In this document: piece after piece, positions 4,222 through 27,476 of the stretch
Numbering within the stretch: position 1 is the first letter of the stretch
Layout of the letters: each line of letters starts with the position of its first letter
From: Pseudomonadota bacterium
GTDB lineage: Bacteria > Pseudomonadota > Gammaproteobacteria > Steroidobacterales > Steroidobacteraceae
DNA: 64,000 bases
Assembly (NCBI GenBank): GCA_018241505.1
Contig: JAFEDS010000009.1
Location: 248,001-312,000 of the forward strand
Direction: 5' to 3'
Program-made: the position numbers and the translations under genes
Notes under the pieces: generated by a model
What the model was told of the DNA's origin: nothing
The model's input: only the letters and a program-made list of their open reading frames with translations
Databases searched by the model: none

Positions 4222-4239
4222 GACCAGGAGCATTTGAGG

Positions 4240-5079: not shown

Positions 5080-5142
5080 GCCGCGACCTGCACTGACCCG
5101 CTTTCGCCGCGAAGGAACATAACAATTACGATGGAGTAAGCC

Positions 5143-8052: not shown

Positions 8053-8060
8053 ACATCCCG

Positions 8061-9863: not shown

Positions 9864-9867
9864 AGGC

Positions 9868-10848: not shown

Positions 10849-10884
10849 TCAATTGTCCAGCATTGGCGCTTGCGTGAGGCGAGG

Positions 10885-12123
10885 TCAGGGCTGCGATGCC
10901 CGAAAGATGCGCAGAAAGTTACCGCCCATGATCGCACTAACGGACGCTTCATCCAGCCCGCGCGCGAAAAGTGCAGCAGGGATCAGGCTCCAGTCCCGGT
11001 AGCTCGCAAACACGGGGCGGTAATTGGCATCCATATCTGTACCGATGCCGACGTGGTCAACTCCAACGGCATCGACAAGTCGTTGGATTGAGTCGATCCA
11101 GTCCGCAAACGTTGATTGCCCGAATCCGGACGGCCAGGAGCCGATCACGCCTCCGGCGTCCGTGATCAGCTTCGCATGCTCGAGGCTCACGAGTCGCGGG
11201 AAACGTGCCGCTTCGGTGAGAAGGTTCGTGTGGGAGATCATCATCGGCTTTGACGACACCTCGACCGCGTCCTTCGCCACCGCGAATGTCGCGTGAGCGA
11301 GATCGATCAGAATACCGGCTGCATTCATTTCTTTGATGATGGTTTTGCCGAGGGGGGTAAGGCCGCCGTGGAGCGGGGGAGCAGTTTGAATGTCGCCTAT
11401 CTGGTTCACGTGATAGTGGACAATCGTGACGGAGCGCACGCCTTCGCGGTGTGCTTCGTGGATCCGGTCGAGACGATCTTCGATAAAGTCGCCGCCTTCG
11501 ATCGCGAATACCGCGGCCGGTACGTGCTTGCGGACCGCTGTGTCGATGTCTCCTGTTGATCGACCAGGGGCGGCGAGGCGGCGCGATACGATGCTCTCTA
11601 GCACGTTGACTTGTCGCTGATAGTCGGCGTAAGCCTCGCCCTGCTTGAACTCGCGCTTTGCCCCGAGGCCTGTCGGTGTTTCGCCAAGCAGTCGCATGTC
11701 GGATACGGCAGAGAACAGTCCGGCGCTTACGCGGCCTGCCGCCAGGTCGGCGCAGGCGCGTTTGATGAAGGCTCGCTTCTCGAGTGCGGCGGCTGCCGGC
11801 GGGTCGCCAGCCAAGTGGCCGGCGAAGAAGAGGGCCCCGGGGTGGCAGTGCATGTCGACGGTCGTGTGAGTTCGTACGAATGCCTCGCCTGCGGCGCGCT
11901 GGTCTTCCGACAGCGTGATACCGAGTGCCGGCCGCTTGGCCGAAGTGTCAGTTGGTGTTGAAGTGTTGGCGGCGTTCGCGCCGACACCGAGCGGATTGCT
12001 TAGAGCGCCCGCACCGGCCGCAGTGACAAGCTGTCGGAGCAGTGTGCGGCGCGAAACCGTACGTGATCCGTCGTCGAACCCAGTTCGTGAGTCATCTACC
12101 GTGCTGTTGGGTACAACCATCAT
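10885..12123 (-). CDS. Tat-exported membrane-type dipeptidase (peptidase M19)
   Basis: A zinc dipeptidase of the renal dipeptidase family, which splits L-D and L-L dipeptides. The N-terminus has a twin-arginine signal (SRRTLLRQLV, residues 24-33) with an AAGAGAL hydrophobic region, so the folded enzyme should be periplasmic. Metal motifs are DMHCHPG (His92, His94), AIEGGD with the bridging Glu, the VHYHVNQIGD segment, and IDLAHA / ISHTN histidines. The length (412 aa with leader) is normal. A -10-like TATACT is present upstream on this strand (12185-12180). It is convergent with the dehydrogenase gene and fits the D-amino-acid and peptide theme of neighbouring loci. Confidence 0.87.
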   Translation of the reverse strand: MMVVPNSTVDDSRTGFDDGSRTVSRRTLLRQLVTAAGAGALSNPLGVGANAANTSTPTDTSAKRPALGITLSEDQRAAGEAFVRTHTTVDMHCHPGALFFAGHLAGDPPAAAALEKRAFIKRACADLAAGRVSAGLFSAVSDMRLLGETPTGLGAKREFKQGEAYADYQRQVNVLESIVSRRLAAPGRSTGDIDTAVRKHVPAAVFAIEGGDFIEDRLDRIHEAHREGVRSVTIVHYHVNQIGDIQTAPPLHGGLTPLGKTIIKEMNAAGILIDLAHATFAVAKDAVEVSSKPMMISHTNLLTEAARFPRLVSLEHAKLITDAGGVIGSWPSGFGQSTFADWIDSIQRLVDAVGVDHVGIGTDMDANYRPVFASYRDWSLIPAALFARGLDEASVSAIMGGNFLRIFRASQP

Positions 12124-12324: not shown

Positions 12325-13242
12325 TCACGGACGAGGACGGATGATCGTCTTCCCCTTGCGTCGTTCCGCAGGGTTGAGGGCCGCGACGGCATCGTTGAGA
12401 GCGGAGACCTTGCCGATGTTTGTCAGCAGCCGTCCATCGCGCACTCGCTGGACGATCTCGTGCAGTTGAGCACGATCGGACTCGACAACAAAATCGACCA
12501 CCCGGCCGTTGTTGGGCCGCGCCTCGGGCGGACCAACGATGGACACCAGTGTCCCTCCGGCTCGAATCAGGCCTGCGGACCGGCTCCCGATGTCCCCGCC
12601 GATGACATCGAACACCAGATCGACTTCGCCGACATTTGCCAGGGCATCGTTGTCGAGGTCGACGAACTCCTTTGCGCCGTGGTCGACCACTGTTTGACGG
12701 TCGGCGGCGCGTCCGGTGCCGATGACGTAGGCGCCGGCCTCACGTGCCAGTTGCGTCGCGATGGACCCGACTGCGCCCGCCGCACCATGCACGAGGACGC
12801 TTTGGCCTGCCTGAAGGCGGCCGTGCTCGAACAGTCCCTGCCACGCGGTGAGGCCCGATATAGGCAGGCTCGCGCCCACCGTGAAGTCAACATCGCCCGG
12901 CAGCGGCGCGAGATTGCGTGCCTCGATTGCTACATACTCTGCGAGGGTGCCGTCGCGATACCAGTCTGCGAGGCCGACCACCCGTTGTCCAACCGACAGT
13001 CCCGTCGAGCCGTAGCCGAGAGCAGACACCACGCCGGCCAGCTCGTGCCCCGGTATCGACGGTGTACGGCTACGGTTGAGGCGATCCGCCCAGGTCGAGG
13101 GCCAGGCCAACTCAGTCGGGACCCATCCCGAGGCATGAACCTGAACCACGACGTCGTTTATCGCTGCCTGCGGCTCGGGTCGCTCCAGCAACTTCATCCC
13201 GGCGGTTCCCTCAGCCGGATCCGTCACCACAATCGCTTTCAT
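12325..13242 (-). CDS. NAD(P)-dependent quinone-oxidoreductase-like enzyme (MDR family)
   Basis: A 305-residue medium-chain dehydrogenase/reductase. It has a GroES-like N-terminal half with PGHELAGVV, then the nucleotide-binding motif HGAAGAVGSIA, and FDVIGG. There are no structural-zinc cysteines, which places it with the zinc-free quinone oxidoreductases. The start at 13242 (MKAIVV) has a GGGAG site 6 bases upstream; the longer frame to 13269 would bury it. The substrate is unknown. It lies upstream of the M19 dipeptidase on the same strand with a 200-base gap, so co-transcription is possible but not shown. Confidence 0.82.
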   Translation of the reverse strand: MKAIVVTDPAEGTAGMKLLERPEPQAAINDVVVQVHASGWVPTELAWPSTWADRLNRSRTPSIPGHELAGVVSALGYGSTGLSVGQRVVGLADWYRDGTLAEYVAIEARNLAPLPGDVDFTVGASLPISGLTAWQGLFEHGRLQAGQSVLVHGAAGAVGSIATQLAREAGAYVIGTGRAADRQTVVDHGAKEFVDLDNDALANVGEVDLVFDVIGGDIGSRSAGLIRAGGTLVSIVGPPEARPNNGRVVDFVVESDRAQLHEIVQRVRDGRLLTNIGKVSALNDAVAALNPAERRKGKTIIRPRP

Positions 13243-13479
13243 CGGTCGTCTCCCATGCTGCCCATGCACTCCTCGTCATAGCACTTGCGGTGCCTGGATG
13301 GATGCGAAGGCCGCCCCCTGGGGAAATAAAAATGTGTTGTACGGGATCGATGCGAAATATGCCTGTGGCCGATCCGGCGGGAGCGCAATAATCCGGCGGG
13401 GTGCTCAGCCAAGTCGCAACCGCATGGGGGCCGAAATCTCCTAACATGCTGGAGGTGGTTGCCTGCCGCGAGTCCCGAA

Positions 13480-14967
13480 ATGCACTACGTTCGACTGCCC
13501 GTTGCACTGTTCGTGGGGATGGGGCTGTTAGTCCACCCGGTCATTGCCGCACCGACTGCGGCCGCGCTTACGGGCCTCGACGCCCGGCTCGAGAAGGACC
13601 GGGTGGAGGAGAGCATTCCGGGACTGGCCGTGGCCATCGCCTCTCATGGCCGGATAATTTATGAAAAGGGCTTTGGGTGGGCCGATCGCGAGAATCGCGT
13701 AGCGGCCACAGAGCACACCCTGTTCTCGCTGGCATCGATCTCGAAACCAATGACCGCTACCGGCCTCATGACACTCGTGCAGGCTCGGAAGGTCGATCTG
13801 GACCGGCCGGCGAACGATTATCTCGGAGACGCAAAGCTGCAGGCGCGTGTTGGCGACGCCGCGCAGGCAACGGTGCGCCGGCTCGCGAACCACTCGTCCG
13901 GTCTGCCGGTTCACTATCAATACTTCTTTGTTGACGAGCCGTATCGGCCGCCCTCGCGGGACGAGACAATCCTGCACTACGGTAATCTGATTACTCCGCC
14001 GGGAGAACGCTACCAGTACTCAAACGTGGGATTCGGAGCGCTGGACTACATCATCAGCCGTGTATCGGGGCAGAGTTATGCGGACTTCATGCGGCGGGAA
14101 GTGTTCGTGAAGCTCGGTATGACTCATACCTCGGTAGGAATCGGACCGGGGTTGGAGAAATATGCCGCGGTCCGTTACGGCGACGACGGCGCACCGCTGC
14201 CATTCTTCGATCTCGATACTCCCGGTGCAGGTGGCATCTACTCGAGTGCCCACGACCTGGTGCGCTTCGGCATGTTTCATCTGAAGGACCATCTATCCGA
14301 TCAGGTGGCTATTCTCAGCGATGCTTCGCTGGATGAAATGCATCGCTCGACTGTCGAGCAAGGCGGTCAGCCCCCGGCTGGTTACGCAATCGGTTGGGAA
14401 GTGATCGACCGTCCGGACGGTTATCACGTCGTAACTCACACGGGCGGAATGCCCGGCGTGGCGACAACATTGATTCTCGTACCCGGCGAGGACCTTGCTG
14501 TCGTACTTCTTGCGAATGGTGGGCCGATTGAGCTGCACGCGCTCGAGAAGCTGGTCATGAGTGCGCTTTTGCCCAAGTGGCGGCAGGTGCCGGAGTCCGG
14601 CGACAAACCGCCGCCGCCATTTGTGCCGTCGCCCGAGTTGGTGGGTGACTGGGCCGGACACGTGCATACCTACGCCGGAGATCGGCCACTGCGCCTGCAG
14701 CTCCGGGCGGACGGCCTCGTGCTGTTACAAGTTGGCGAGCAGCCTGCCAGCGTCATGAGTGAAGTCAGATTCGAGAAAGGCACACTGTTCGGGACAGCGC
14801 GCGGTGATCTCGATACGCCCGATCTGCGCCGTCATGGGGCCTTCCTTCTTGAGGTGAATCTGCAATTGCGAGGCAATGAGCTGACCGGCGGAGTCACCGC
14901 GACGCGCCACTACGCCCGGCCCTTCGGCCTCACGCATTGGACCGAGCTACAGAAGCGCCCGCAGTAA
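13480..14967 (+). CDS. Exported serine hydrolase, class C beta-lactamase fold
   Basis: A 495-residue protein starting at ATG 13480 with a signal peptide (VALFVGMGLL...AAP). It has the SxxK nucleophile motif SISK (Ser86, Lys89), a YSN motif in the 180s, and HTGG in place of KTG. The last ~120 residues form a separate beta-rich domain typical of DUF3471-like or lipocalin-like tails. This family covers D-aminopeptidases, esterases and penicillin-binding-like enzymes, so resistance should not be assumed. A TTG at 13459 with GGAGG close by is an alternative start but would place extra polar residues before the signal peptide. It lies 170 bases upstream of the TonB receptor operon. Confidence 0.83.
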   Translation: MHYVRLPVALFVGMGLLVHPVIAAPTAAALTGLDARLEKDRVEESIPGLAVAIASHGRIIYEKGFGWADRENRVAATEHTLFSLASISKPMTATGLMTLVQARKVDLDRPANDYLGDAKLQARVGDAAQATVRRLANHSSGLPVHYQYFFVDEPYRPPSRDETILHYGNLITPPGERYQYSNVGFGALDYIISRVSGQSYADFMRREVFVKLGMTHTSVGIGPGLEKYAAVRYGDDGAPLPFFDLDTPGAGGIYSSAHDLVRFGMFHLKDHLSDQVAILSDASLDEMHRSTVEQGGQPPAGYAIGWEVIDRPDGYHVVTHTGGMPGVATTLILVPGEDLAVVLLANGGPIELHALEKLVMSALLPKWRQVPESGDKPPPPFVPSPELVGDWAGHVHTYAGDRPLRLQLRADGLVLLQVGEQPASVMSEVRFEKGTLFGTARGDLDTPDLRRHGAFLLEVNLQLRGNELTGGVTATRHYARPFGLTHWTELQKRPQ

Positions 14968-15021
14968 CGCTGCAATTTCCACACGATAGATTATTTCGTG
15001 CAAGCCGCTACTGAGACAATA

Positions 15022-15038
15022 ATCAGACACAGTCTGAT
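15022..15038. promoter_or_regulatory. 17-bp palindrome, candidate operator
   Basis: ATCAGAC-ACA-GTCTGAT is a perfect 7-bp inverted repeat with a 3-base centre, 98 bases before the receptor start at 15137. The size and symmetry suit a dimeric repressor site. The stem is not GC-rich and no T-run follows, so it is a poor terminator. Confidence 0.5.
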
Positions 15039-15136
15039 CAATACCTAGAGTTGCGCTGCGTGGTTTGCAGTTATTTTGCAAGCACAGAATTCGCCCGAAT
15101 TCTTATCATTCAATGACTGGCTTCGGGGGTATTCAA

Positions 15137-17248
15137 GTGAAAAAACGCTTCGTGGTTGCAGCATCCGTGCTTTCAGTTTCCTGTCCCGCCGGCTATGCGC
15201 TCGGTGCGGACGCGGCAGGAGACCAACTTCAGGAAGTGGTCGTCACCGCACAAAAGCGTGAACAGCGGCTGAAGGACGTGCCGATCAGCATCGTTGCCGT
15301 CGGCGCCGATGAGCTCAAGGATCGCCAGATCACTTCAATGGAGGATCTGCCGAACGCGGTGCCCGGTCTCGGCTACACGAGCGCCGGAAACAGTCACTAC
15401 ATCGAGATCCGGGGCATCAGTGATATCGTGGGCAGCAGCTCATTGATCGGAATTTACATCGACGACACCGATGTAACACTCGGCGGCGCAGCGACAGTTC
15501 AGGCCAACCCCATTACCTACGATCTCGAACGGGTGGAGGTACTGCGCGGCCCGCAGGGAACCCTGTATGGGGAAGGCTCGGCGGGCGGCACGGTGCGCTT
15601 CATCAGCAAGAACCCGAACCTCAGTACGTTTGCCTTCGATTCCAATGTGGCGGCGATGTTTACGCAGTACGGCGACCCGAGTCAGCGCATCAACGCCATG
15701 GTCAATGTGCCGTTGATTGACGGTCAGGTCGGACTGAGAGTCGCCGGCACCTTCCAGCACGACGGCGGCTGGATCGACCAGCCTGCGGCGCAGCGCGACA
15801 ATATTAATGCCCAGGATCTGACAAATGTCAGAATCAAGGGTTTGTGGCAACCCAGCTCCCAACTGTCCATCGTCGCCATGGCGATCATCAATCGCAATAC
15901 TCGCGGCATGGATTTCAGCGACAGCGGCGCGCCCGAGCAGTTTACGCAGGTGTTCGGGCTGACGACCTCGCCTCGGGTCAAAAACAACTACGACCTCTTC
16001 AGCCTCACTGCAACCTATGACATTGCGTCCGTTGCGCGAATTTCAAACACGCTCGGATATGTGAGAGCGGTGGTCCCGCAATGGAGCGTGCCCGCCTACT
16101 TTCAAACTACGGCGCAGCTCACCCCGGGAACTGTAGCTGACTACTACGTTCCGTTGCAGGACATCAGTGATCATCTGCTGACCGATGAGTTGCGGTTGGC
16201 ATCCGCCGGCACGGGACCGTGGCAGTGGACTGTCGGCGGATTTTTCCGACGCTACACCGACGCGGTGAGCGCGCCGGTGAATTACTACGGCTTCCCGGGG
16301 CCCGCCAGCCAGCCGCTGCCGGACCCTTATTCCTCCGAGATACTTTCCAAGTTCAGGTCATGGTCTGCGTTCCTGGATACCAGTTACCGGTTTTGGGACC
16401 GGCTGACACTGGGAGCAGGCGTGCGCTCTTTTCAGGAGACGCAGCACTTCAGTGACTTTGTGGGAATGACACAGCAGAGCGGTACTTTCCATTCGGTGGA
16501 TCCGCGCGTTTACGCGCAATTCAAGCTGACACCCGAAGTCAATCTATACACCAGCGCAGCCAAGGGATTCCGCAGCGGCGGCTTCAATCAGTTCGAGCAG
16601 CCGCAATATCAGCCGGAGAATGTCTGGACCTATGAGCTCGGCAGCAAAATGTCCTTTCCGGATGCGCGAGTCGATATTGATGCCGATGTCTTCCTGACCA
16701 ACTACTCGGACTATCAGACCTTTGCTCCTTTACCGGGCGCCGAGCTGGTCTCGGCCATCCGCAATGTGGGGCACGCGAGAATCAAAGGCATTGAGGCCGA
16801 TGCGAGCTGGCGGCCGCTGGCGCACTGGCGCCTGGATATGCGCGGGAACTACCTGAATGCCCGGTTTACGGAAGTTGCGGCCGAGTCGACTGCCTATATA
16901 GCCGGAGATCCGGTTGATCTCGTGCCCCGGTACCAGTTCGCCGCGTCGGCGCAACATGACTACATGCTGTGGGGCAAAACCGCCGTCAGCCGACTCGATT
17001 TCACTCAGCAGGGGCCGGCGACCTACCGGAACCGCAGCAGCGGACCTTGGTACTACAATGAGTCCGACATCATTCAGATGCTGAATTTCAACACCAGCCT
17101 GGAGTGGAGCAATAACCTCACGCTGGGGGTGTTCGCACGCAATCTACTCAATGACCAGGGTTTCACCAACCCCTACAGCATTATCGGCAATGGGGTGCGG
17201 TCGCGTCCGCGGACCGTCGGGGTCGAGTTCACCGCCTCATTTGAGTGA
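15137..17248 (+). CDS. TonB-dependent outer-membrane receptor
   Basis: About 703 residues. The GTG at 15137 is chosen because it has a GGGGG site at 15125-15129 and gives an ideal signal peptide (KKRFVVAASVLSVS, cut near ALG-AD). The frame continues upstream to 15065 without one. The plug domain begins with EVVVTAQKREQRLKDVPISI and contains VEVLRGPQGTLYG. The C-terminus ends in Phe-Glu after the barrel strands. It imports an unknown nutrient across the outer membrane with TonB energy. One base separates its stop from the next gene, so the nutrient is probably a substrate of the fused peptidase/deacylase that follows. Confidence 0.9.
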   Translation: MKKRFVVAASVLSVSCPAGYALGADAAGDQLQEVVVTAQKREQRLKDVPISIVAVGADELKDRQITSMEDLPNAVPGLGYTSAGNSHYIEIRGISDIVGSSSLIGIYIDDTDVTLGGAATVQANPITYDLERVEVLRGPQGTLYGEGSAGGTVRFISKNPNLSTFAFDSNVAAMFTQYGDPSQRINAMVNVPLIDGQVGLRVAGTFQHDGGWIDQPAAQRDNINAQDLTNVRIKGLWQPSSQLSIVAMAIINRNTRGMDFSDSGAPEQFTQVFGLTTSPRVKNNYDLFSLTATYDIASVARISNTLGYVRAVVPQWSVPAYFQTTAQLTPGTVADYYVPLQDISDHLLTDELRLASAGTGPWQWTVGGFFRRYTDAVSAPVNYYGFPGPASQPLPDPYSSEILSKFRSWSAFLDTSYRFWDRLTLGAGVRSFQETQHFSDFVGMTQQSGTFHSVDPRVYAQFKLTPEVNLYTSAAKGFRSGGFNQFEQPQYQPENVWTYELGSKMSFPDARVDIDADVFLTNYSDYQTFAPLPGAELVSAIRNVGHARIKGIEADASWRPLAHWRLDMRGNYLNARFTEVAAESTAYIAGDPVDLVPRYQFAASAQHDYMLWGKTAVSRLDFTQQGPATYRNRSSGPWYYNESDIIQMLNFNTSLEWSNNLTLGVFARNLLNDQGFTNPYSIIGNGVRSRPRTVGVEFTASFE

Positions 17249-17249
17249 G

Positions 17250-20200
17250 ATGAGCGTGAGCCGCAGAATCGCTTTCGCGTTGTGGGCGGTCATGCTCGCT
17301 ACGCGTGCACTCGGATTTGACATTTCGAGTCTCCTCGAGGTGCCTCATCCGTCGCAGGTGGTTTCTGCCGAGCACGCCGCAAGAATTGCGTGGATAGCGA
17401 ACGATCGCGGTGTCCGGAATGTCTGGACCGCGGCCGCACCCAAGTTCGTGCCGCAGATGGTAACTCGCTGGACCGATGACAATGGCCAGGACCTGAGCGG
17501 CCTGCGAATGAGCGTGGATGGCTCTACGCTCGTGTGGGTTCGTGGAGGGTCGCCTGACGATGCGGGTTTCTCCCAGAATCCGCAGAGCCTGCCATCTGGC
17601 GTGGAGCAGGAAATCTGGACTGCGGCCGCGGACGGGCCGCCGCGCAAGCTTGGCACCGGGTCCTCGCCTGTATTGCCGCCCGATGCACGAGTCGTCCTGG
17701 TCAACAAGGGCAAGACTATTAGCTGTTTGTCTGTTACCAGCACCGCACCGGGCTGGTGTACAGATCCGTTGCTGAAGCTGCGAGGCAGTAATGGGCGACC
17801 CCGTTTTTCCCCAGATGGCCGCAAGGTCGCCTTTGTCAGTGATCGCAAGGACCACAGCTTCATCGGCGTTCTGGATACGGTGACGCGCAGTGTCACGTGG
17901 ATTGCGCCCGATGTCGATCGCGATGACTTTCCCGTCTGGTCTCCCGACGGAACACGAATCGCCTTCATCCGGATCCGCGGCGAGCGCTTTGGCGAGCTGT
18001 TGGATATCACGGAAGACCGCCCGTTTGAAATCTGGACCGCGGATGCGACGAGCGGCGTGGGTAAGGTTGTGTTCCGATCAGGGGAACGGGCGGGGGGCTT
18101 TGCGCAGATCGACCTCGAGGGGCCGGCCCGTGAGCCGTTGCGCTGGAGCAAGGCCGATCAACTCTTGTTCTATTCGGAAGACTCCGGCTGGCTGCATCTC
18201 TATGCGCTCTCCTCAGGCGGTGGGCGTCCGAAGGATCTGACGCCCGGGGACTGCGAGGTGGAAAGTGATGCTCTCGCGGCGAATGGGCGCACGCTGATTG
18301 TCAGCAGCAATTGCGCCAATATTGACGGTCGACAACTGTTTCGCGTGTCGGTGGACGGTGGCAAAACCGAGCTGTTGCCGGGCAGAACGATCGATGTTGA
18401 ACCGGTATTTATTGGCGCATCCGGGCAATACGCATATCGCAGCTCAGACGCTGTGCAGCCGATCTCGGTTGCCATCGCGGCAACCGAGGGTCGACCGCAC
18501 CTCATCTATCCCAATCTACCCCGCGGCTTTCCTGCGCAGTCTCTTGTCCAACCCGAGGTCGTGACGTTTCAGGCGGGTGACGGGCTGACGATTCACGGGC
18601 AATTGTTTCGCCCGGCATCAGGCCACGATGGCGACAAGCGCCCCGCAGTCATTTTTGTCCATGGAGGACCCGTGCGGCAGATGCTGCCTGGCTGGCACTA
18701 CATGGACTACTACAGCAATTGTTACGCGATGAATCAGTACCTCGCCTCCCGTGGGTTTGTGGTGCTGGCAATCAACTATCGAAGCGGCACCGGTTATGGT
18801 CAGGAATTCCGCGATGCCAGGAATCAGGGCGCGCGGGGCGCGTCCGAATACCAGGACGTATTGGCCGGGCGCGAGTTCTTAACTCGCCTTCACAATGTCG
18901 ATACCGCTCGAATTGGAATCTGGGGCGGCTCGTATGGTGGACTTCTGACCGCGCAGGCGCTGGCGCGCAACTCGGATCTGTTCGCCGCGGGAGTCGATTT
19001 CCACGGCGTACACGATTGGGCACAGATGGCAAAGGATACGCAGGGCGCGGGCCGAGGAATCGAGGAGCCCCTATACGACCTCGCCCACCGATCGTCGCCG
19101 GACGCTGCGATAGCGACATGGCGTTCGCCGGTGTTGTTTATTCATGGCGATGATGACCGCAGTGTCCCGTTCAATCAAACAACCGATTTGGTGCGGCGGC
19201 TGCGCGCGCAGGGCGTGCATACTGAAACGTTGATCTTTCCGGACGAAGAGCATGGCTTCCTTCGCTATGCATCCTGGCTCCGAGCATTTGAGGCGACGGC
19301 GCAGTTCCTGACTCGCACGCTCGGAACTGAACGATTGCACGACACAATCATTCGCAACGGGCTGATCTACGACGGCTCAGGTCGCCCGCCGTACCTGGGC
19401 GAGGTCGCGATCGATGGTGATCGTATCGCCGCAGTGGGTAAGCACGTGAAGGGCCATGCGCGGCTCGAAGTCGACGCGCGGGGTAAAGCCGTTGCACCCG
19501 GTTTCATCAACATGCTGTCGCATTCCGAAGTGTCGTTGCTGGCGGACGGCCGGGCGCTCAGCGATTTGATGCAAGGGGTGACCCTCGAAGTCATGGGCGA
19601 AGATTCAATGGGGCCGCTCACGCCAGCCATGAAAAAGCTCCTGCGGGAGCAGCAGAGCACAATTCATTTCGACGTCGACTGGACTACTTTCGGGGAGTTC
19701 TTCGAAAACCTGCAGAAGCGCGGTATCGCTCCCAACGTTGCCGCCTTCGTAGGCATGGGCACCGTTCGCGCCAACCTCCTCGGTGAAGCGGATGTCCAGC
19801 CGACACCGCAACAGCTCACGGCAATGAAAGAGTTGGTCAGACAGGCGATGGAGGAGGGTGCCCTCGGGGCCACCACCGCCCTGATCTACAGTCCCGATGT
19901 CTACGCGAAAACGCCGGAACTGAAGGCTCTTGCCGGCGAGTCGGCCCGTTGCGGCGGTATGTACATTGCGCACATTCGTTCCGAGGGTGATCGCCTGCTG
20001 GAGGCGGTCGCGGAAACAATCGACATTGCACGCGCCTCTGGCGCGCCGGCCGAGATTTATCACCTGAAGGCGGCGGGCAAGTCCAATTGGAAACAACTCG
20101 ATGGCGCCATCAGGATGGTCGAGCAGGCGCGGGCGCGAGGGGTGCGAATTACCGCGGACATGTATACCTACACCGCAGGGGCAACAGGCCTCGACGCGGC

Positions 20201-21002
20201 AATGCCGCCGTGGGTGCGTGAGGGCGGCATTGAAGCGTGGGTGGCCCGACTGCGCGATCCGGTCATCCGCGCGAAGGTGATCGCGGAGATGCGCAATCCG
20301 AATCCGCAGTGGGAGAATCTCTATTTCCATGCCGGGCCGAGCGGAACGCGTTTGCTGGGATTCAAGAACCCGGCTCTGCGCCCGCTGATCGGCAAGACAC
20401 TGGCCGAGGTCGCTGCGACCCGCGGAGTCAGTCCGGAAGATGCGGCGATCGATCTGGTGATTGAGGATGGGTCGGAAGTGAGCGTCGCCTACTTCCTGAT
20501 GTCTGAGGACAATGTCAGGCGCCAGATCGCACTGCCGTGGGTCAGTTTCGGGTCCGATTCCGATGCCCCCGCGCCGCAGGGCGCTTTTCTCGAGGCGAGT
20601 GATCATCCGCGCGCCTATGGAAATTTCGCGCGCTTGCTGGCGCGGTACGTTCGCGATGAGAAGGTGATCACCTTGCAGGAGGCAGTCCGCAAGCTCACCG
20701 CGCTGCCGGCAGCCAACCTGTCATTGCAGAATCGGGGGCGGCTCGAGGCGGGCTACTTCGCCGATGTTGTGATATTCGACCCGGCCACCATCCAGGACCA
20801 CTCGACTTACGAACAGCCGCACCAACTCGCCTCTGGTATGCAAGATGTGTGGGTGAACGGCGTTCGCGCCTTGCAGGATGGAACGGCTACTCATGCTGCC
20901 AGCGGACGATTCGTTCGCGGACGAGCGTGGTCCGGCACGCCGGGAGGCGGATGCCGCGCGTCCAGCAAGGACTGGCAGTGGGAAAATGAGGTGCTTCCGT
21001 GA
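17250..21002 (+). CDS. Fusion of S9 prolyl-oligopeptidase-type peptidase and N-acyl-D-amino-acid deacylase
   Basis: A single 1250-residue frame. A signal peptide (RIAFALWAVMLATRALG) is followed by a WD40/Tol-B-like propeller (about 30-430) and the S9 alpha/beta-hydrolase domain with GGSYGG (Ser561), a GDDDRSVP acid motif and EEHGF (catalytic His). From about residue 695 a full D-aminoacylase/amidohydrolase domain begins (IIRNGLIYDGSG), with IAHIRSEG, EIYHLKAAG and SFGSDSD metal motifs. The first metal site reads NMLSHSE where D-aminoacylases have a VHTH-type HxH. No stop or ribosome site lies between the halves, so the fusion is real unless there is a sequencing error. It probably cuts a peptide bond and an N-acyl-D-amino-acid bond in the periplasm. 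Confidence 0.88.
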   Translation: MSVSRRIAFALWAVMLATRALGFDISSLLEVPHPSQVVSAEHAARIAWIANDRGVRNVWTAAAPKFVPQMVTRWTDDNGQDLSGLRMSVDGSTLVWVRGGSPDDAGFSQNPQSLPSGVEQEIWTAAADGPPRKLGTGSSPVLPPDARVVLVNKGKTISCLSVTSTAPGWCTDPLLKLRGSNGRPRFSPDGRKVAFVSDRKDHSFIGVLDTVTRSVTWIAPDVDRDDFPVWSPDGTRIAFIRIRGERFGELLDITEDRPFEIWTADATSGVGKVVFRSGERAGGFAQIDLEGPAREPLRWSKADQLLFYSEDSGWLHLYALSSGGGRPKDLTPGDCEVESDALAANGRTLIVSSNCANIDGRQLFRVSVDGGKTELLPGRTIDVEPVFIGASGQYAYRSSDAVQPISVAIAATEGRPHLIYPNLPRGFPAQSLVQPEVVTFQAGDGLTIHGQLFRPASGHDGDKRPAVIFVHGGPVRQMLPGWHYMDYYSNCYAMNQYLASRGFVVLAINYRSGTGYGQEFRDARNQGARGASEYQDVLAGREFLTRLHNVDTARIGIWGGSYGGLLTAQALARNSDLFAAGVDFHGVHDWAQMAKDTQGAGRGIEEPLYDLAHRSSPDAAIATWRSPVLFIHGDDDRSVPFNQTTDLVRRLRAQGVHTETLIFPDEEHGFLRYASWLRAFEATAQFLTRTLGTERLHDTIIRNGLIYDGSGRPPYLGEVAIDGDRIAAVGKHVKGHARLEVDARGKAVAPGFINMLSHSEVSLLADGRALSDLMQGVTLEVMGEDSMGPLTPAMKKLLREQQSTIHFDVDWTTFGEFFENLQKRGIAPNVAAFVGMGTVRANLLGEADVQPTPQQLTAMKELVRQAMEEGALGATTALIYSPDVYAKTPELKALAGESARCGGMYIAHIRSEGDRLLEAVAETIDIARASGAPAEIYHLKAAGKSNWKQLDGAIRMVEQARARGVRITADMYTYTAGATGLDAAMPPWVREGGIEAWVARLRDPVIRAKVIAEMRNPNPQWENLYFHAGPSGTRLLGFKNPALRPLIGKTLAEVAATRGVSPEDAAIDLVIEDGSEVSVAYFLMSEDNVRRQIALPWVSFGSDSDAPAPQGAFLEASDHPRAYGNFARLLARYVRDEKVITLQEAVRKLTALPAANLSLQNRGRLEAGYFADVVIFDPATIQDHSTYEQPHQLASGMQDVWVNGVRALQDGTATHAASGRFVRGRAWSGTPGGGCRASSKDWQWENEVLP

Positions 21003-22729
21003 GCTTGCCAGCTATCAACCGCCGACACTTTTTGACACTCGCGGGCCCCGCTGCCTGTGTCGCTTACGCAGGAGGACTACGGCAAAGCGTCGGGGACCAC
21101 GCACCATCGGCCGGCCCGATTCGGCCGGACGTGATCGTCGTCAATGCAAATGTCTACACCGTTGACACCCGGCTGCCGCGTGCGACTGCGTTCGCGGTCG
21201 CAGGGGGCAGGTTCCAAGCAGTCGGTACCGATGATGAGATTCGCAATCTGGCACGACGCGATACACCGGTTTTCGATGCGCAGCGGATGACAATCGTTCC
21301 GGGGTTCATTGATTGTCACAACCATTCGGAGGCCGAAACCCTGCTGTATGGAGTCATCGTGGGCAACCCCTTCGAAGTTGAGCTCGTCACCATTGACAGC
21401 ATTGTTGACAAGTTGCAGGCGCGCGTTGCCGAGACTCCCCCGGGGGAATGGATTGAAGGACAGTTCTTTGACGATACGAAAGTGCGTGACGGCCGCAGCC
21501 TGAATATCCACGATCTGGACCGGGTTTCGCTGCAACATCCGGTCGCCGTGCATCACCGTGGCGGCCATACGGCCTTCTATAACAGTAAGGCATTCCAACT
21601 TGCCGGGATTACGAAGTCCTCGCCGAATCCACCGGGCGGAACATTCGATCGGGACGCCCAGGGTGAGCTCAACGGGCGTGTCACCGACACCGCGATGGAC
21701 GCGTTCGAAAAGGTCGGTACCCACCCGACTCATTCGCCGACCGTAGCCGCGCAACGCAGGCGCGACAGCATGGCCTACATTTCCAAGCAGTTCGTTCGCT
21801 ATGGGCTCACGAGCGTGCATCACGATGATGAGGATCACTTGCTGGCGCTGCAGCAGATACGGGCCGCAGGTGACCTCAAGCATCGAGTTACTTTCGAGCC
21901 GAGTGGCGCCATTCTGGCCGCCCTGCTGAGCGGACAGGTGGCCTCCGGCTTCGGCGATGACTGGATCCGGTTTGGGGCCACCTCGGAGCACACGGTGGAT
22001 GGCTCCTTTTCCGAACGGACCATGGCACTGAGCCAGCCCTATATCGGTCGGTCAAATGGTTATCGTGGCAACGTGACGGATACCCAGGACGGGCTCAATG
22101 CCTGGGTTGAGCAGATGTTGAGAGCGGGCATCAGGCCCAACTGCCATGCGAACGGCGATGTCGCAATCGACATGGTGCTGACGGCGTACGAACGTGGATT
22201 GAAAGCGGTTTCCGCGCGGGATGTCCGTCCAAAGATCACTCATTGCACTCTAGTCAATGAGCAACTGCTGCGCCGGATGAAAGCCATCGACGCCGTGCCG
22301 GCGGTCTTCAGTACCTATGCGTACTACAACGCCGACAAGTTTCACTTCTACGGCGAAGCGCTCATGCGCAATTGCATGGCGTATCGTTCCTTCCTCGATG
22401 CCGGTGTGCAGGCCGCGGCGGGGTCGGACTTCGGGCCGGGACCGTTTGCGCCGCTAATGGGCATTCAGGGCATGGTCACGCGGCGCGGCTGGAACGGCGA
22501 GGTTTGGGGTGCCAATCAGCGTGTGTCGGTTGGCGAGGCGCTGCGGATCAATACCTTGAATGGCGCCTACAACTCGAAGGAAGAGACCAACAAGGGATCG
22601 ATTACGGCCGGCCGACTCGCCGACTTTGTGGTGCTGGCTGAGGATCCACACAGCGTGGATCCGAATCGGATCGCCGATATCAAGATTGTTCGCACGGTAA
22701 CCGGTGGCGATACCGTTTATCAGGCGTAG
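20999..22729 (+). CDS. Exported amidohydrolase, YtcJ-like
   Basis: A 576-residue metal-dependent amidohydrolase of the YtcJ/AepA group. Its GTG start overlaps the previous stop (GTGA), so it is translationally coupled. The N-terminus NRRHFLTLAGPAACVAYAGG looks like a Tat signal. The metal motif GFIDCHNHSE is clear, and the typical HHRGGHTAFYNS, HHDDEDH and GSDFGPGPF segments follow. The substrate is unknown; members act on amides, carbamates and cyclic ureas. Its place between the D-aminoacylase fusion and ACC deaminase suggests it removes another acyl or amide group from the same imported compound. Confidence 0.85.
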   Translation: MSLPAINRRHFLTLAGPAACVAYAGGLRQSVGDHAPSAGPIRPDVIVVNANVYTVDTRLPRATAFAVAGGRFQAVGTDDEIRNLARRDTPVFDAQRMTIVPGFIDCHNHSEAETLLYGVIVGNPFEVELVTIDSIVDKLQARVAETPPGEWIEGQFFDDTKVRDGRSLNIHDLDRVSLQHPVAVHHRGGHTAFYNSKAFQLAGITKSSPNPPGGTFDRDAQGELNGRVTDTAMDAFEKVGTHPTHSPTVAAQRRRDSMAYISKQFVRYGLTSVHHDDEDHLLALQQIRAAGDLKHRVTFEPSGAILAALLSGQVASGFGDDWIRFGATSEHTVDGSFSERTMALSQPYIGRSNGYRGNVTDTQDGLNAWVEQMLRAGIRPNCHANGDVAIDMVLTAYERGLKAVSARDVRPKITHCTLVNEQLLRRMKAIDAVPAVFSTYAYYNADKFHFYGEALMRNCMAYRSFLDAGVQAAAGSDFGPGPFAPLMGIQGMVTRRGWNGEVWGANQRVSVGEALRINTLNGAYNSKEETNKGSITAGRLADFVVLAEDPHSVDPNRIADIKIVRTVTGGDTVYQA

Positions 22730-22770
22730 TTCGTAGTTGAAGAGTACTCCGTAACAGAGGATTGTCACGC

Positions 22771-23787
22771 ATGTTGTTGAAGCGCTTTCCGCGGTATGAG
22801 CTGACGTTCGGGCCGACACCGATCCAACCCCTGCGGCGGCTCAGCGCCCATCTGGGCGGCGGCGTCGAGTTGTATGCGAAGCGGGAGGATTGCAACAGCG
22901 GCCTGGCGTTTGGTGGCAACAAGACCCGCAAGCTGGAGTACCTGATTCCGGAAGCGCTGGCTCAGGGGTGTGACACACTGGTATCGATCGGCGGTATCCA
23001 GTCGAATCAAACCCGGCAGGTCGCGGCGGTCGCGGCTCATCTGGGCATGCGTTGTGTTCTGGTTCAGGAAAACTGGGTCAACTACTGGGACGCTGTCTAC
23101 GATCGTGTGGGCAACATCGAGCTGTCGCGCATCCTGGGGGCCGACGTTCGTCTGGACCCGTCCGGCTTTGATATCGCCATTCGCCCGAGTTGGGAGCGCG
23201 CCCTGGAGGACGTGCGCAAGAGCGGCGGTAAGCCGTTTCCGATTCCGGCGGGCTGCTCGGAGCATCGCCTGGGTGGGCTCGGCTTTGTTGCTTTCGCGGA
23301 AGAGGTGCGTGCACAGGAAGCTCAACTGGGCTTCCGTTTCGACTACATTGTTGTCTGCTCGGTAACCGGAAGCACCCAGGCCGGCATGATTGTGGGTTTC
23401 GCGGCCGATGGCCGCGCCGACCGGGTCATTGGTATCGATGCATCGGCAAAACCAACCAGCACGCGGGAGCAGATCAAGCGGATTGCGGTTAACACGGCGC
23501 AGCTCGTGGATCTCGGTCGCGAGATCACGGATGAGGATGTGGTGCTCGATTCACGCTATGGCGGTCCGGAATATGGCCTGCCGAGCGAGGGGACGCTCGA
23601 GGCTATACGGCTGTGTGCTCGCCAGGAGGGTATGCTGACTGACCCGGTCTACGAGGGAAAATCCATGCACGGCATGATCGAGAAGGTACGCAGAGGCGAG
23701 TTTCCCAAGGGCTCCAGGGTGTTGTATGCCCACCTGGGCGGGGCGCCCGCATTGAGTGCGTACAGCTTCCTGTTTCGCAACGGCTGA
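22771..23787 (+). CDS. acdS: 1-aminocyclopropane-1-carboxylate (ACC) deaminase
   Basis: A PLP enzyme that opens the ACC ring to give 2-oxobutanoate and ammonia; it can also use D-Ser or D-Cys. The length of 338 residues is the same as the Pseudomonas enzyme and the sequence can be aligned without gaps. It has PLP Lys51 (GGNKTRKL), Ser78 ([10 protein letters not shown]), and the residues that separate true ACC deaminases from D-cysteine desulfhydrases: Glu in PVYEGKS (position 295) and Leu in AHLGG (322). It lies 41 bases after the YtcJ-like gene with AGAGGA before the ATG. Cytoplasmic. Confidence 0.95.
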
Positions 23788-23794
23788 CGGCGCG

Positions 23795-24310
23795 CTAGAT
23801 TGACAGCTCGGTGGTGGTCAACACCTGCTTGAGAACCATGAATGACCGGATTTGCCGTACGCCCGGCAAATGCAGCAATTGCTCCGCGTGCAGCCGGTTG
23901 AAGTCCTCGTTATCGCGGGTTCTCAGCAGCATGAAATAGTCGAACTCACCGGCGACCACGTGGCATTCCAGGCAGCCGGAGACCTTGACCACCGCCTTCT
24001 CGAAGTCTGAAAACGACTCCGGTGTCGAGCGATCCAGTACAACGCCGATCAATACCAACATGCTGGCATTGAGTGCGCGCGGATTGAGCAGCGCCACGGT
24101 CCGACTGATGATGCCGGTCTCGCGCAGCCGGCTGACACGCCGCAGGCAGGCTGGCGCGCTCAAATTCACCTTGGCGGCGAGCGCCACATTCGAAATGGTG
24201 GCATCGCGCTGCAACGTACGAAGTATCGCGCGGTCGGTCCGATCCATTTCGACCGGCAGAGCCTCGGACGTGCCCTTGGCGTTTGCAATTCTGTTGCTCG
24301 ATTGTCTCAT
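23795..24310 (-). CDS. Lrp/AsnC-family regulator, AcdR-like
   Basis: About 171 residues. A helix-turn-helix (DRTDRAILRTLQRDATIS...LSAPACLRRVSRL) is followed by an Lrp effector domain (RAM fold) with the GEFDYFMLLRTRD segment. Lrp-type regulators often control ACC deaminase genes (AcdR). There acdR is usually divergent from acdS, whereas here it is tail to tail, 7 bases from the acdS stop. The start is uncertain: ATG 24310 is chosen, with TTG 24322 and ATG 24247 as alternatives. An ACAGC/GCTGT inverted repeat (24316-24332) sits over the start region and could be an autoregulatory site. Confidence 0.8.
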   Translation of the reverse strand: MRQSSNRIANAKGTSEALPVEMDRTDRAILRTLQRDATISNVALAAKVNLSAPACLRRVSRLRETGIISRTVALLNPRALNASMLVLIGVVLDRSTPESFSDFEKAVVKVSGCLECHVVAGEFDYFMLLRTRDNEDFNRLHAEQLLHLPGVRQIRSFMVLKQVLTTTELSI

Positions 24311-24494
24311 TGTGAACAGCAAAAAAGGCTGTATTGAGGAATCTCCGCATTAGGCTGCGTCAAGAGCTGGTACTTTGCAAGAACTACCGCCGCCGTAGCT
24401 CTTACCACCGCCGGCGCGCAATTTGCCTGGAATCACGACGTCTAGCTACAATCCTCGTCGATACCCCGCCCGAGAACAACGACAGGGGGCCATC

Positions 24495-25703
24495 ATGCAG
24501 ACGAGCCATCGACGACGCGAGGCGTTTGCGCAAGCGTCCGCTTTAACCCTCGTACTCTGGCTATCTTCCCCGTTGACGGCCGCGAATACGGTATACCCAA
24601 CGGGCACCTCGCCGAATGACGTTGTTGCAGTGCAGGCAGCGGTCAACGCAGGAGGGGAAGTCCTGCTCGAGGCGGTCAATGCTGCCGGGACTCCAACAGC
24701 CTTTAATTTCGGGCCTGGCGAGCAGGTATCGATCACCACCGATGTCGCTATTCGCGGCGAGACCACAAAAGTCGGGATGACCACCATTCAAGGCGGCCGG
24801 GATGTGTTTGTCGCCCGCGGCCTGTCATCTCAGATTCGGATCCAAGGCATTCATTTCGACCATCCGAACACCGCAATAGTCATTACGGCAACACGCGGCG
24901 CCGTGATCACGGGAAATTGGATAACGAACTTCTCATCCGCCGCTGTGAGCGTCGTGAATTTTGCAAATCCATCAGCAATTAGTGGAGTAGTCACCATATC
25001 CGACAATGTTGCGGATAGCGGGGATCCTTTTGCAGACGGCCTCGCTGTGTTCTCCGCGTCCGCGACCGTCGAAGTAACGGGAAACGAGGTGTACAACGTG
25101 GGTGAGCTGGGAATTGTTGCTATTCCCACCAGTCCCATTTCCATCAGCGGAAATCTCGTCGCGCCCGGCCGCGGGGATGATGTGAACACCTTTGGTGACG
25201 GTATATTGGTGTTTCCTGGATTCCCGTCTGACGATACGGTGCTGATTGAGCACAACGTAATTGCACCAGCGGACTCCCAGGCACAAGGAATCAGCGTGTC
25301 TGTCGGACGCCCGACCTCGATCATTCAGAACCAACTGAGCACGCAAGCGGCGGTTGCGGGGGTGGTTCTTTTTGGCAATGTGTCGGGTGCTTATGTCGGA
25401 CAGAATCGATTTGACGGAGCGATGGCCATAGCTATCGCGATAGCGGACACCGGGCAGGGTGATGCGGTTGGCAACGCGCTGATTGGCAACAATGTGAGCC
25501 ACGCGCAGGCAACCATAGCGAGTCTGTTTCTTGACCAGAACACTCGGGACAGCGTCGTGACCGGCAGCGCAGGGGCCACGGTTGTCGATCTGGGGGCGAA
25601 TAATTACATTACCGGCGCCGGAAGCGTTGGGCACGCAAACATTGGCCAATTGGTGCGCGCTCCGAAACAAACACTCCAGGCAGTACGGGCAAAGTACCAA
25701 TGA
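24495..25703 (+). CDS. Secreted right-handed beta-helix protein
   Basis: About 402 residues. The ATG at 24495 follows a GGGGGC site and opens a signal peptide (ASALTLVLWLSSPLTAA). The mature chain shows the repeated short hydrophobic strands and Asn/Gly turns of parallel beta-helix proteins (ITGNWI..., ISDNVAD..., VTGNEVYN..., ISGNLV..., IEHNVI...), as in pectate-lyase-like and NosD/DUF-type proteins. There is no clear lyase catalytic Lys/Arg set, so enzyme activity is unproven. It may bind or trim a surface or plant polysaccharide. The next gene, also secreted, starts 60 bases later. Confidence 0.72.
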   Translation: MQTSHRRREAFAQASALTLVLWLSSPLTAANTVYPTGTSPNDVVAVQAAVNAGGEVLLEAVNAAGTPTAFNFGPGEQVSITTDVAIRGETTKVGMTTIQGGRDVFVARGLSSQIRIQGIHFDHPNTAIVITATRGAVITGNWITNFSSAAVSVVNFANPSAISGVVTISDNVADSGDPFADGLAVFSASATVEVTGNEVYNVGELGIVAIPTSPISISGNLVAPGRGDDVNTFGDGILVFPGFPSDDTVLIEHNVIAPADSQAQGISVSVGRPTSIIQNQLSTQAAVAGVVLFGNVSGAYVGQNRFDGAMAIAIAIADTGQGDAVGNALIGNNVSHAQATIASLFLDQNTRDSVVTGSAGATVVDLGANNYITGAGSVGHANIGQLVRAPKQTLQAVRAKYQ

Positions 25704-25763: not shown

Positions 25764-27476
25764 ATGCGTCCCACCAAGAAGCGCCATCGAAAGGGCCTGC
25801 GAGCACTTGGGGTCATCGTTGCAATGGTGGCGAGTTGCTCGCCGGTCTGGAGCGCTACCACGCGAGCGGAGCTGAGCGCGCAACTTCTCGAGTGTGACGA
25901 CGTAGACTCCGGCCTGTGTGCTGATCGCTACACGCAAAGGACCTACGAAGGTAAATACATCGGACACGATGAAGTGTCACTGCTCTTCTACTCGGACGTG
26001 CCCGGCTCCGGAAACTACCAAGTATACGAGCTCGTGCTGCCCAAGGATCCGCCCACACCTCCGGCGCAGGATGGCAGCGGCGGAACGTTCAATTTCCAGC
26101 TACACCCCACATTCTGGTTCGGCATGGCGCTGTGTGATACGCAGTCCTGGCCCAATACAAATCCTGTTTGTAAACCCGATTCCGACGAGAACATCTACGA
26201 TAATCCCAATCGCAACGCTCCGGACTATATTGGACGTCACCCGGGAGCCGCCGTTCTCGAATTGCAGTTCTATCCTCCATTCGGCATCAATCCAGGGGCG
26301 GTTGCAGACGCGTGGTCGGCTGCGCTGACCATCGACAGTCTCAGTGATCGGATCGGGCCGGTGGAAGCAGTCTCGAACAATCAGGACTGCCTCGCAAAGG
26401 CCGGCGAGGAACCCGTCAATTTCGCGTATCTGACCTTGCACGGGCAGGCACAGGCACCTGCGAGCCCGCTCAACACCGACTTCGCCAACAAGTTTGGCTA
26501 CCAACCTGGGAATACGTTTCTGATGAATGCCGGCGATCGGCTCATCATTCAGCTTTATGACACTCCGGCGGGAGTGCGTGTTGTTGTCAAGGATCTGACT
26601 ACAGGTCAGACAGGCTCGATGACAGCCAGCGCCGCCAACGGATTTGCACACGTGAACTTCGTCCCAGATCCGCTTCCGGCGCGTCCCTCTGTCAAGTGCA
26701 CTGCGCGAAATGAGGGATTCCATCCCATGTACAGTACATCGAGCGAACACACGCGCGTTATATGGGGGGCGCACACCTTTAACATCACGTACACCGATGA
26801 AATCGGCCACTACGAGCATTGCGGTGCTGTTGACCATGAGGGCGGACAGTGTTTGGTTGCCGGCAGTGATGATCGCGCCGGCGTAGACGCTGATGATTTC
26901 GCATGCTTCAGCGCGGACTTCCTCGGAAGCTTGGGACTGGCGCCTGTTGGTGCATGCTTGGGCGAGGACCTGGATTTTGATGGAGTTCCCTATCGGTTAA
27001 CCTGGCCGGGAACGGGTCCTCCAGCGGATGATGCTCAGCTCAAACCTACACCGGTACGCTTTACGAGCCCGCGGTTCTTGAGCACCGCAGCTCCCAGTGG
27101 GGCTTTGCAAAACTACCAACGCGTCGCGTTCGAATCCGACTTGCCGGTGCTCGAGAGCGCGGCGGGCGTGCCGTCGTGTTCGCAACTGGGTGCGTACGAC
27201 GGCTGTACGAATCCGCCTCCCGGCGCGCAGTTCTACCCGATCTTTTCGACCACTCAGATTGCAAATGAGTGCTGGTGGCAGGAAGGTGGAGCTTCAATAC
27301 CGGGAACGATTGAGACGTTCGGTGGTTCGTCGGCAACGGAGTTCGGTACGACACCTCTTCAGGTGCTGATCCCATGGTCGACCGATCCAAACTCCCCCGC
27401 CAGTATCACAGTTCCCCAGGACTTCCGGCGGATCCTTCCGCTCAATCCCTGCAAGGCGGGCGGGCAGCTCCAATAA
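25764..27476 (+). CDS. Large secreted protein of unknown function
   Basis: 570 residues from the ATG at 25764, with GAAGGG before it. The signal peptide is RALGVIVAMVASCSPVWSA. The mature protein contains many cysteines and Trp/Tyr, Asp-rich loops (DADDFACFSAD, DLDFDGVPY) and an HTFNITYTDEIGHYEHC segment, consistent with an extracellular, metal-binding, disulfide-bonded beta protein. I do not recognise a named family. The cysteine pattern suggests periplasmic or extracellular folding. It probably belongs with the beta-helix gene upstream. Confidence 0.6.
   Translation: MRPTKKRHRKGLRALGVIVAMVASCSPVWSATTRAELSAQLLECDDVDSGLCADRYTQRTYEGKYIGHDEVSLLFYSDVPGSGNYQVYELVLPKDPPTPPAQDGSGGTFNFQLHPTFWFGMALCDTQSWPNTNPVCKPDSDENIYDNPNRNAPDYIGRHPGAAVLELQFYPPFGINPGAVADAWSAALTIDSLSDRIGPVEAVSNNQDCLAKAGEEPVNFAYLTLHGQAQAPASPLNTDFANKFGYQPGNTFLMNAGDRLIIQLYDTPAGVRVVVKDLTTGQTGSMTASAANGFAHVNFVPDPLPARPSVKCTARNEGFHPMYSTSSEHTRVIWGAHTFNITYTDEIGHYEHCGAVDHEGGQCLVAGSDDRAGVDADDFACFSADFLGSLGLAPVGACLGEDLDFDGVPYRLTWPGTGPPADDAQLKPTPVRFTSPRFLSTAAPSGALQNYQRVAFESDLPVLESAAGVPSCSQLGAYDGCTNPPPGAQFYPIFSTTQIANECWWQEGGASIPGTIETFGGSSATEFGTTPLQVLIPWSTDPNSPASITVPQDFRRILPLNPCKAGGQLQ

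Follow-up and report, generated by a model that had tools for sequence, protein, structure and literature searches.

An ACC deaminase gene at the end of a TonB receptor and hydrolase gene run in a Steroidobacteraceae genome: a candidate deacylate-and-deaminate operon

Introduction

The compound 1-aminocyclopropane-1-carboxylate (ACC) is the precursor of plant ethylene, and is destroyed by ACC deaminase (AcdS). This study concerns a run of four genes that ends with acdS, following genes for a TonB-dependent receptor, an S9 peptidase-amidohydrolase fusion and a YtcJ-type amidohydrolase. The run lies within a 64,000 nt stretch of DNA, hereafter called the window, from a Pseudomonadota bacterium of the family Steroidobacteraceae (assembly GCA_018241505.1, contig JAFEDS010000009.1, positions 248,001 to 312,000). 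In most of the Proteobacteria studied, acdR is opposite in direction to acdS (PMC4048297). For the ong pathway, it is established that a D-aminoacylase homologue removes an acyl group and that a pyridoxal 5'-phosphate (PLP) enzyme then deaminates the product (PMC9537276), and in plants the reconversion of malonyl-ACC (MACC) by an unknown hydrolase is twice reported, according to PMC4227472. Within the literature searched, which misses most subscription papers, no paper was found to contain 'ACC deaminase' and 'D-aminoacylase' together, and no title or abstract opening among those listed described a bacterial hydrolase of ACC conjugates or an S9-amidohydrolase fusion.

Organization of the locus

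The explanation we favour, at slightly less than an even chance, is that an operon for the periplasmic hydrolysis of peptides or N-acyl-amino acids captured acdS to give a working deacylate-and-deaminate operon, the substrate being left unspecified. The genes are as follows (aa, amino acids):

15137..17248, + strand: TonB-dependent outer-membrane receptor, 703 aa (Plug 1.2e-17, barrel 9.6e-38; longest frame open from 15065)
17250-21002, + strand: S9-amidohydrolase fusion (Pfam PD40/DPPIV_N/Peptidase_S9 and Amidohydro_3)
17250..19319, + strand: S9 peptidase half of the fusion, about residues 1-690 (Peptidase_S9 1.5e-42; DPP4-type structures)
19338..21002, + strand: amidohydrolase half of the fusion, predicted D-aminoacylase fold, from about residue 697 (Amidohydro_3 1.2e-17; structure model and Foldseek; metal-site residues)
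20999..22729, + strand: YtcJ-type amidohydrolase, 576 aa (Amidohydro_3 8.7e-76)
22771..23787, + strand: ACC deaminase AcdS, 338 aa (PALP in Pfam; TIGR01274; relatives 1RQX/1TYZ; frame open from 22762)
23795..24322, - strand: AcdR orthologue, Lrp family (convergent with acdS; identity to Lrp genes beside acdS elsewhere)

The original prediction, made from the bare sequence, had described four genes (15137-23787) with gaps of 1, -4 and 41 bases and a true ACC deaminase at the end, and this is borne out by the coordinates, all on the + strand, the Pfam matches and TIGR01274. The AcdR orthologue and an S12 hydrolase gene further upstream (13459-14967) are additions to that prediction. The fusion and YtcJ-type genes overlap by the four bases GTGA. 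A consensus scan of the region 13200-24700, with expectations obtained by shuffling, returned four promoter-like sites (3.4 expected), of which the + strand pair is at 13631 and 24423, and none on this strand within the four-gene run. Spacing and scan are compatible with one transcript, without proving one; a single transcription unit is plausible, and we infer that the four genes are co-transcribed. The contig carrying the window is 654,563 bases long, and the source assembly totals 7.88 Mb over 46 contigs (completeness 93.9%, contamination 5.67%).

The ACC deaminase and its regulator

AcdS passed the NCBIfam equivalog model TIGR01274 (624.5 bits, cut-off 392) and aligned with the Pseudomonas ACC deaminase structures, its best solved relatives, without gaps over residues 2-338 (E 4.1e-191). 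It carries K51, S78, Y294, E295 and L322, which are the ACC deaminase residues as listed in PMC4048297 (Lys51, Ser78, Tyr294/295, Glu295/296 and Leu322, with numbering that varies among papers). Judged by family model, structure alignment and residues, it is a genuine ACC deaminase; the alternative of a D-cysteine desulfhydrase was rejected on the TIGR01274 score and the residues. For the UW4 enzyme, PMC4048297 reports that exchanging the residues matching E295 and L322 abolished ACC activity and raised D-cysteine activity.

These residues bear on a special case of the favoured explanation, in which the hydrolases would cleave D-peptides or N-acyl-D-amino acids, with AcdS in the role of a D-amino-acid lyase. 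We consider this case distinctly unlikely, its probability overlapping with that of the general explanation. E295 and L322 are of the ACC type, which argues against it, while the use of D-cysteine and other D-amino acids by the enzyme of Pseudomonas sp. ACP (PMC4048297) argues for it. The published statements conflict here, since according to PMC3344862 neither D-Cys nor D-Ser is degraded by ACC deaminases.

In a FastTree phylogeny of 55 sequences, AcdS groups with proteins of Burkholderia stagnalis and Cupriavidus taiwanensis in a clade of 15 members (support 0.99), and its identity to the closest loci is 80–87%. Because branch support within the clade is low (0.12–0.56), the donor of acdS cannot be named. 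The adjoining Lrp gene (23795-24322) is 67–79% identical to the Lrp genes that adjoin acdS in L237-L245, the nine nearest loci from the phylum search, with values of 75% to the Burkholderia, 71% to the locus L201 and 69% to the Cupriavidus counterparts. On the strength of these identities, it is taken as an AcdR orthologue, and the possibility that it is an unrelated neighbour was discarded.

The arrangement of the pair is unusual. Forty-eight acdS loci of 7.5–20 kb each were surveyed (32 from a phylum search, 10 from the order, 4 from the class and 2 from the genus; threshold 1e-4), several of which end at contig ends (L044, L050, L261 and L263 among them). In one of the searches behind this survey, the 10 places at 64–70% identity were followed, the weaker matches (44% and below) being regarded as D-cysteine-desulfhydrase-like. 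An AcdR relative lies upstream of acdS on the opposite strand, 127–307 bases away, in 31 of them, and was not found in the remaining 17. The window lacks this canonical divergent arrangement, acdR being convergent with acdS and 7 bases downstream of it. DNA similarity to eight canonical loci spans acdS and acdR, and is absent from the region upstream of acdS. Tandem duplication followed by partial loss could have produced this order, although no acdS remnant that would point to such an event was found past acdR. Base composition was also considered as a sign of recent arrival and gave none, the G+C of acdS (0.618) and acdR (0.587) being near the window value (0.611).

Among the 58 genomes of the genus, the source included, acdS was detected in three (E<=1e-100); its setting differs in each, and none of the three has a divergent acdR upstream. 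In one genus mate (locus L165), acdS lies behind a LacI-PfkB-permease-DeoC/LacD-aldehyde-dehydrogenase run. The same locus (3159-11650 of G586:C45) has an esterase-like gene following acdS, and is without acdR. In the other (locus L166), a TonB gene lies directly 5' of acdS on the same strand. Resemblance of this receptor to that of the window was considered as proof of a shared substrate and rejected, the two being barely similar (22% over 145 residues).

The fusion protein and the YtcJ-type amidohydrolase

The fusion junction is in frame: the barrel domain begins directly where the S9 end stops, with neither a stop codon nor a leftover leader between them, and an assembly or frameshift artefact was rejected for this reason. 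The unfused paralogue L053, by contrast, starts with a leader-like stretch. The S9 half has the architecture of S9 peptidases, a propeller and a catalytic alpha/beta-hydrolase domain (PD40, DPPIV_N and Peptidase_S9), together with a leader-like start and Ser/Asp/His motifs, and the YtcJ-type protein has a twin-arginine-like leader. All leaders, the twin-arginine one included, were judged by eye, as were the S9 catalytic motifs in the alignments with the DPP4-type structures.

The structure model of the amidohydrolase half, built on an 18-row alignment, has a mean predicted local distance difference test (pLDDT) score of 80.5 and a predicted template modeling (pTM) score of 0.81. Its nine best PDB matches by Foldseek are D-aminoacylases, an N-acyl-D-glutamate deacylase and OngB (query TM 0.72–0.75), after which the values drop to about 0.5, and the model predicts a D-aminoacylase, or subtype V, fold with an insertion-bearing barrel. 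The original prediction had described a fusion with a D-aminoacylase, of which the fold is upheld by Foldseek and the metal-site signature is not. The first His of the HxH motif is replaced by Leu in the window and by Leu or Met in all 27 relatives that share 60% identity or more, and the metal-position Cys is absent from the window and from the same 27 relatives, so that neither the HxH motif nor a Cys/His/His metal site is present. Adjacent to the position of the missing Cys is a Glu, found in 27/27 relatives. It is invariant in the 18-row alignment together with the two metal His and the catalytic Asp (D419), the last lying in a part of the model (residues 418-435) with a pLDDT below 50. 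The clade may thus represent a Glu/His/His mononuclear variant, with ligands nearer to those of CE9 enzymes. In OngB, Ala at the Cys or metal His is reported to leave very little activity or none, and Ala at either His of the HxH motif to abolish it (PMC12017989). The activity of this half is suggested by the predicted fold, from which the acyl group and chirality are not predictable. For the D-amino-acid case, the modelled D-aminoacylase fold is a point in favour, and the barrel without the D-aminoacylase metal signature a point against.

Unfused paralogues of both halves are found in the same genome, at 68% identity for S9 (C42:491485) and 67% for the amidohydrolase (C42:469370). A second full-length fusion was not found among the 80 kept loci of 121 relatives (pattern-based contig scan), in the other 57 of the 58 genus genomes, or, with about three candidates scored per genome, in any of the 216 other genomes among the 217 of the family. 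The fusion query matched 46 family genomes at E<=1e-220, the source genome included, and the genus and family matches from other genomes span the amidohydrolase half only. The full fusion being seen in the source genome alone, it therefore looks young. Elsewhere in the source genome, a relative of the amidohydrolase half (43%) is directly followed by an M14 carboxypeptidase gene, with a penicillin-amidase-type gene before it on the other strand (L058, 5793-11415 of G000:C27).

Relatives of the YtcJ-type protein occur in 6 of the 58 genus genomes (E<=1e-110), and at E<=1e-130 the TonB receptor is matched in none of the 57 genus mates. The source genome contains 174 TonB-receptor candidates at first look.

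Sibling runs in the same genome

Several other loci of the source genome bring together similar genes. One run, on a single strand (L195, 6175-15651 of G000:C7), carries genes for a TonB receptor, a YtcJ paralogue, an amino-acid permease, a DgcA-like racemase (387.5 bits against the DgcA model, just under the cut-off of 400), a PRK09061-type amidohydrolase and an RpiR-type regulator, and has the appearance of an operon for D-amino acids or N-acyl-amino acids. The YtcJ paralogue beside this racemase is a further point for the D-amino-acid case. A second single-strand run (L194, 3371-14841 of G000:C7) specifies a TonB receptor, an FAD-type protein, a YtcJ paralogue and an NAD(P)-binding protein. 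A gamma-glutamyltranspeptidase gene lies close to it on the opposite strand. The remaining loci combine S12, TonB and a cysteine-desulfurase-like enzyme (L055), TonB, S12 and S9 (L054), or TonB, amidohydrolase, S12 and S9 on mixed strands (L056). The combination of a receptor, hydrolases and a single amino-acid enzyme thus appears to recur with the enzyme exchanged and, arguing from this pattern, AcdS would fill the slot in the window. A functional link of AcdS with the hydrolases is best argued from these runs, because they repeat the pattern with a varied amino-acid enzyme.

Gene neighbourhood surveys

Two further hydrolase genes lie upstream of the run in the window:

13459..14967, + strand: S12/beta-lactamase-fold serine hydrolase, possibly part of the locus (PF00144 2.5e-65)
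10885..12123, - strand: M19 dipeptidase, link uncertain (PF01244 1.9e-49)

The relatives of the amidohydrolase half were surveyed in 35 loci of at least 7 kb, those under 7000 bases being dropped. The gene picker was rough, missing the amidohydrolase in L183 and acdS in L045 and L047-L049, which were recovered by tblastn. S12 genes occur in 10 of the 35 loci, TonB genes in 8 and M19 genes in 3. Twenty-five family loci were compared with 20 control stretches, which were taken at round coordinates in six family genomes and were not random draws; Fisher values are one-sided and uncorrected over seven tests. S12 is found in 9/25 loci and 0/20 controls (0.0023). M19, tried as a further associate of the clade, was not above control (2/25 and 1/20, 0.58) and was dropped; S9 (1/25 and 0/20) and YtcJ (1/25 and 1/20) are rare in both sets. 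None of 20 stretches of the source genome itself has a relative of S12, S9, the amidohydrolase or YtcJ. Given that S12 recurs beside the barrel half and that a pairing with acdS is absent elsewhere, S12 is the recurring company and acdS the newcomer. The recurrence of S12 hydrolases beside this clade also favours the D-amino-acid case.

In favour of the capture of acdS into a working operon stand the short gaps and the lack of + strand promoter-like sites within the run, the lost divergent acdR arrangement and the missing DNA similarity upstream of acdS, the sibling runs, the S12 company of the amidohydrolase clade, the ong precedent and the TonB gene directly ahead of acdS in L166. A number of results weigh against it. 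Relatives of S9, the amidohydrolase, YtcJ, S12 and M19 occur in none of the 48 acdS loci (1e-4), and acdS in none of the 35 amidohydrolase-clade loci. TonB enrichment beside the clade is weak (7/25 loci, 1/20 controls, 0.050), and a TonB relative is present in 6 of the 20 own-genome stretches. The scan detected no + strand promoter-like site just 5' of the TonB gene and did no better than chance, and its terminator-like sites were slightly above expectation (14; 9.3 expected, standard deviation 3.1), some of them on the + strand and intragenic. Finally, the run contains no gene for an inner-membrane transporter. In the relatives surveyed, the four-gene set with acdS is not conserved, an outcome that the original prediction had listed as refuting it, and the check suggested there, a search of genomes for acdS beside D-aminoacylase and TonB genes together, gave no further instance.

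The same counts favour a relocation without metabolic link, in which an inserted and rearranged acdS-acdR pair came to lie behind a hydrolase operon that was already there and acts on peptides unrelated to ACC, acdS at most borrowing its promoter. This we hold to be unlikely, if a little less so than the D-amino-acid case. It agrees with the absent pairing in both surveys, with the scarcity of acdS in the genus and its different context in all three genomes that have it, and with acdR having travelled too and still adjoining acdS. It agrees less well with the position of acdS as last gene at operon-like spacing, and with the varied amino-acid enzyme of the other same-genome runs.

Proposed pathway and substrate

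Under the favoured explanation, an operon that starts with a TonB gene and serves to break down peptide-like or N-acylated small amino acids would have captured an acdS-acdR pair of the Burkholderia/Cupriavidus type, leaving acdS as the last gene of the run and no longer divergent from acdR. The receptor would move a conjugate over the outer membrane, and the exported fusion, together with the YtcJ-type amidohydrolase, would hydrolyse it in the periplasm at peptide and acyl bonds. Once released, the amino acid would cross inward through a transporter encoded elsewhere, and cytoplasmic AcdS would deaminate it, whether ACC or another accepted amino acid, to a 2-oxo acid and ammonia. Export, activities, substrate and order of steps are all putative.

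That any bound form of ACC is released in this way, by TonB uptake of a peptide or acyl conjugate, a periplasmic fusion with a Glu/His/His amidohydrolase and co-transcribed AcdS, seems to us quite improbable. The original prediction had proposed an operon that imports and unmasks conjugated ACC or N-acyl-D-amino acids, from which the plausible single transcription unit, the apparent export leaders of the amidohydrolases and a workable topology survive; nothing is specific to conjugated ACC. The plant-conjugate version, in which N-malonyl-ACC, gamma-glutamyl-ACC or jasmonoyl-ACC is imported and opened to free ACC, is the least probable of the readings weighed here and again overlaps with the general explanation. 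A true AcdS with its own AcdR suits it, PMC4227472 states the existence of the conjugates and calls the MACC hydrolase of plants unknown, ACC malonylation is reported to be competed by D-methionine (PMC10452086), and an Amidohydro_3 protein is reported to split bile-salt amides (PMC13081902). Against this, no feature of the locus indicates these acyl groups, an S9 peptidase would be unnecessary for malonyl-ACC, the run is without a gamma-glutamyl hydrolase, and the pairing is absent across the 48 acdS loci. Nothing seen favours malonyl- or gamma-glutamyl-ACC over D-peptides, other N-acyl amino acids or no link at all. Conjugated plant ACC is a possible substrate, though less probable than D-amino acids and less probable than a relocation with no metabolic link.

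Other features of the window and genome

A cyanophycin make-and-break cluster lies at 3025-9860 of the window, with genes for beta-aspartyl-peptidase (TIGR01975, 388.9 bits), cyanophycinase (TIGR02069, 250.5) and cyanophycin synthetase (TIGR02068, 1111.7), and for a second CphA-like ligase that scored below the cut-off (323 of 850). A 570 aa frame at 25764-27476 (+ strand) has no Pfam match at 1e-5. At 7.9 Mb, the source genome exceeds the 57 genus mates searched, the biggest of which is about 6.9 Mb.

Implications

If the operon does free bound ACC, bacteria could tap the plant's stored ethylene precursor beyond the free pool, the fusion would be a bacterial enzyme freeing ACC from a bound form, and the malonyl-ACC hydrolase called unknown in PMC4227472 would gain a candidate family. 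Even otherwise, acdS is seen to leave its AcdR-divergent setting for other operons within one genus, and attention is drawn to a clade of amidohydrolases that has a changed metal site and tends to adjoin S12 hydrolases.

Comparison with known systems

The acdR-acdS module of Proteobacteria is closely matched in sequence (AcdS 80–87% and AcdR 67–79% identity to the closest loci) and differs in layout, the window having a convergent, downstream acdR and an acdS placed behind a hydrolase run. The D-aminoacylases 1M7J and 9G5M and the N-acyl-D-glutamate deacylase 3GIP, the best Foldseek matches of the amidohydrolase half at 27–31% identity, share its metal His pair and catalytic Asp; the window half and its clade have instead Leu/Met for the first His of HxH, a replaced Cys96 and an invariant Glu alongside. 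The Amidohydro_3 bile salt hydrolases of Bilophila (PMC13081902) have their Pfam family in common with the YtcJ-type protein, and the reported cleavage of amide conjugates is that of the Bilophila enzymes. The ong cluster for oxidized chitin of Pseudoalteromonas prydzensis ACAM 620 (PMC9537276, PMC12017989) offers a parallel in its reported outer-membrane uptake, deacylation by the D-aminoacylase homologue OngB and deamination by the PLP enzyme OngC. OngB, however, is described as cytoplasmic, acts on GlcNAc1A and keeps Cys97, His68 and His70, whereas the barrel in the window lacks these Cys/His features and is fused to a leader-bearing S9 peptidase, and the deaminase is AcdS.

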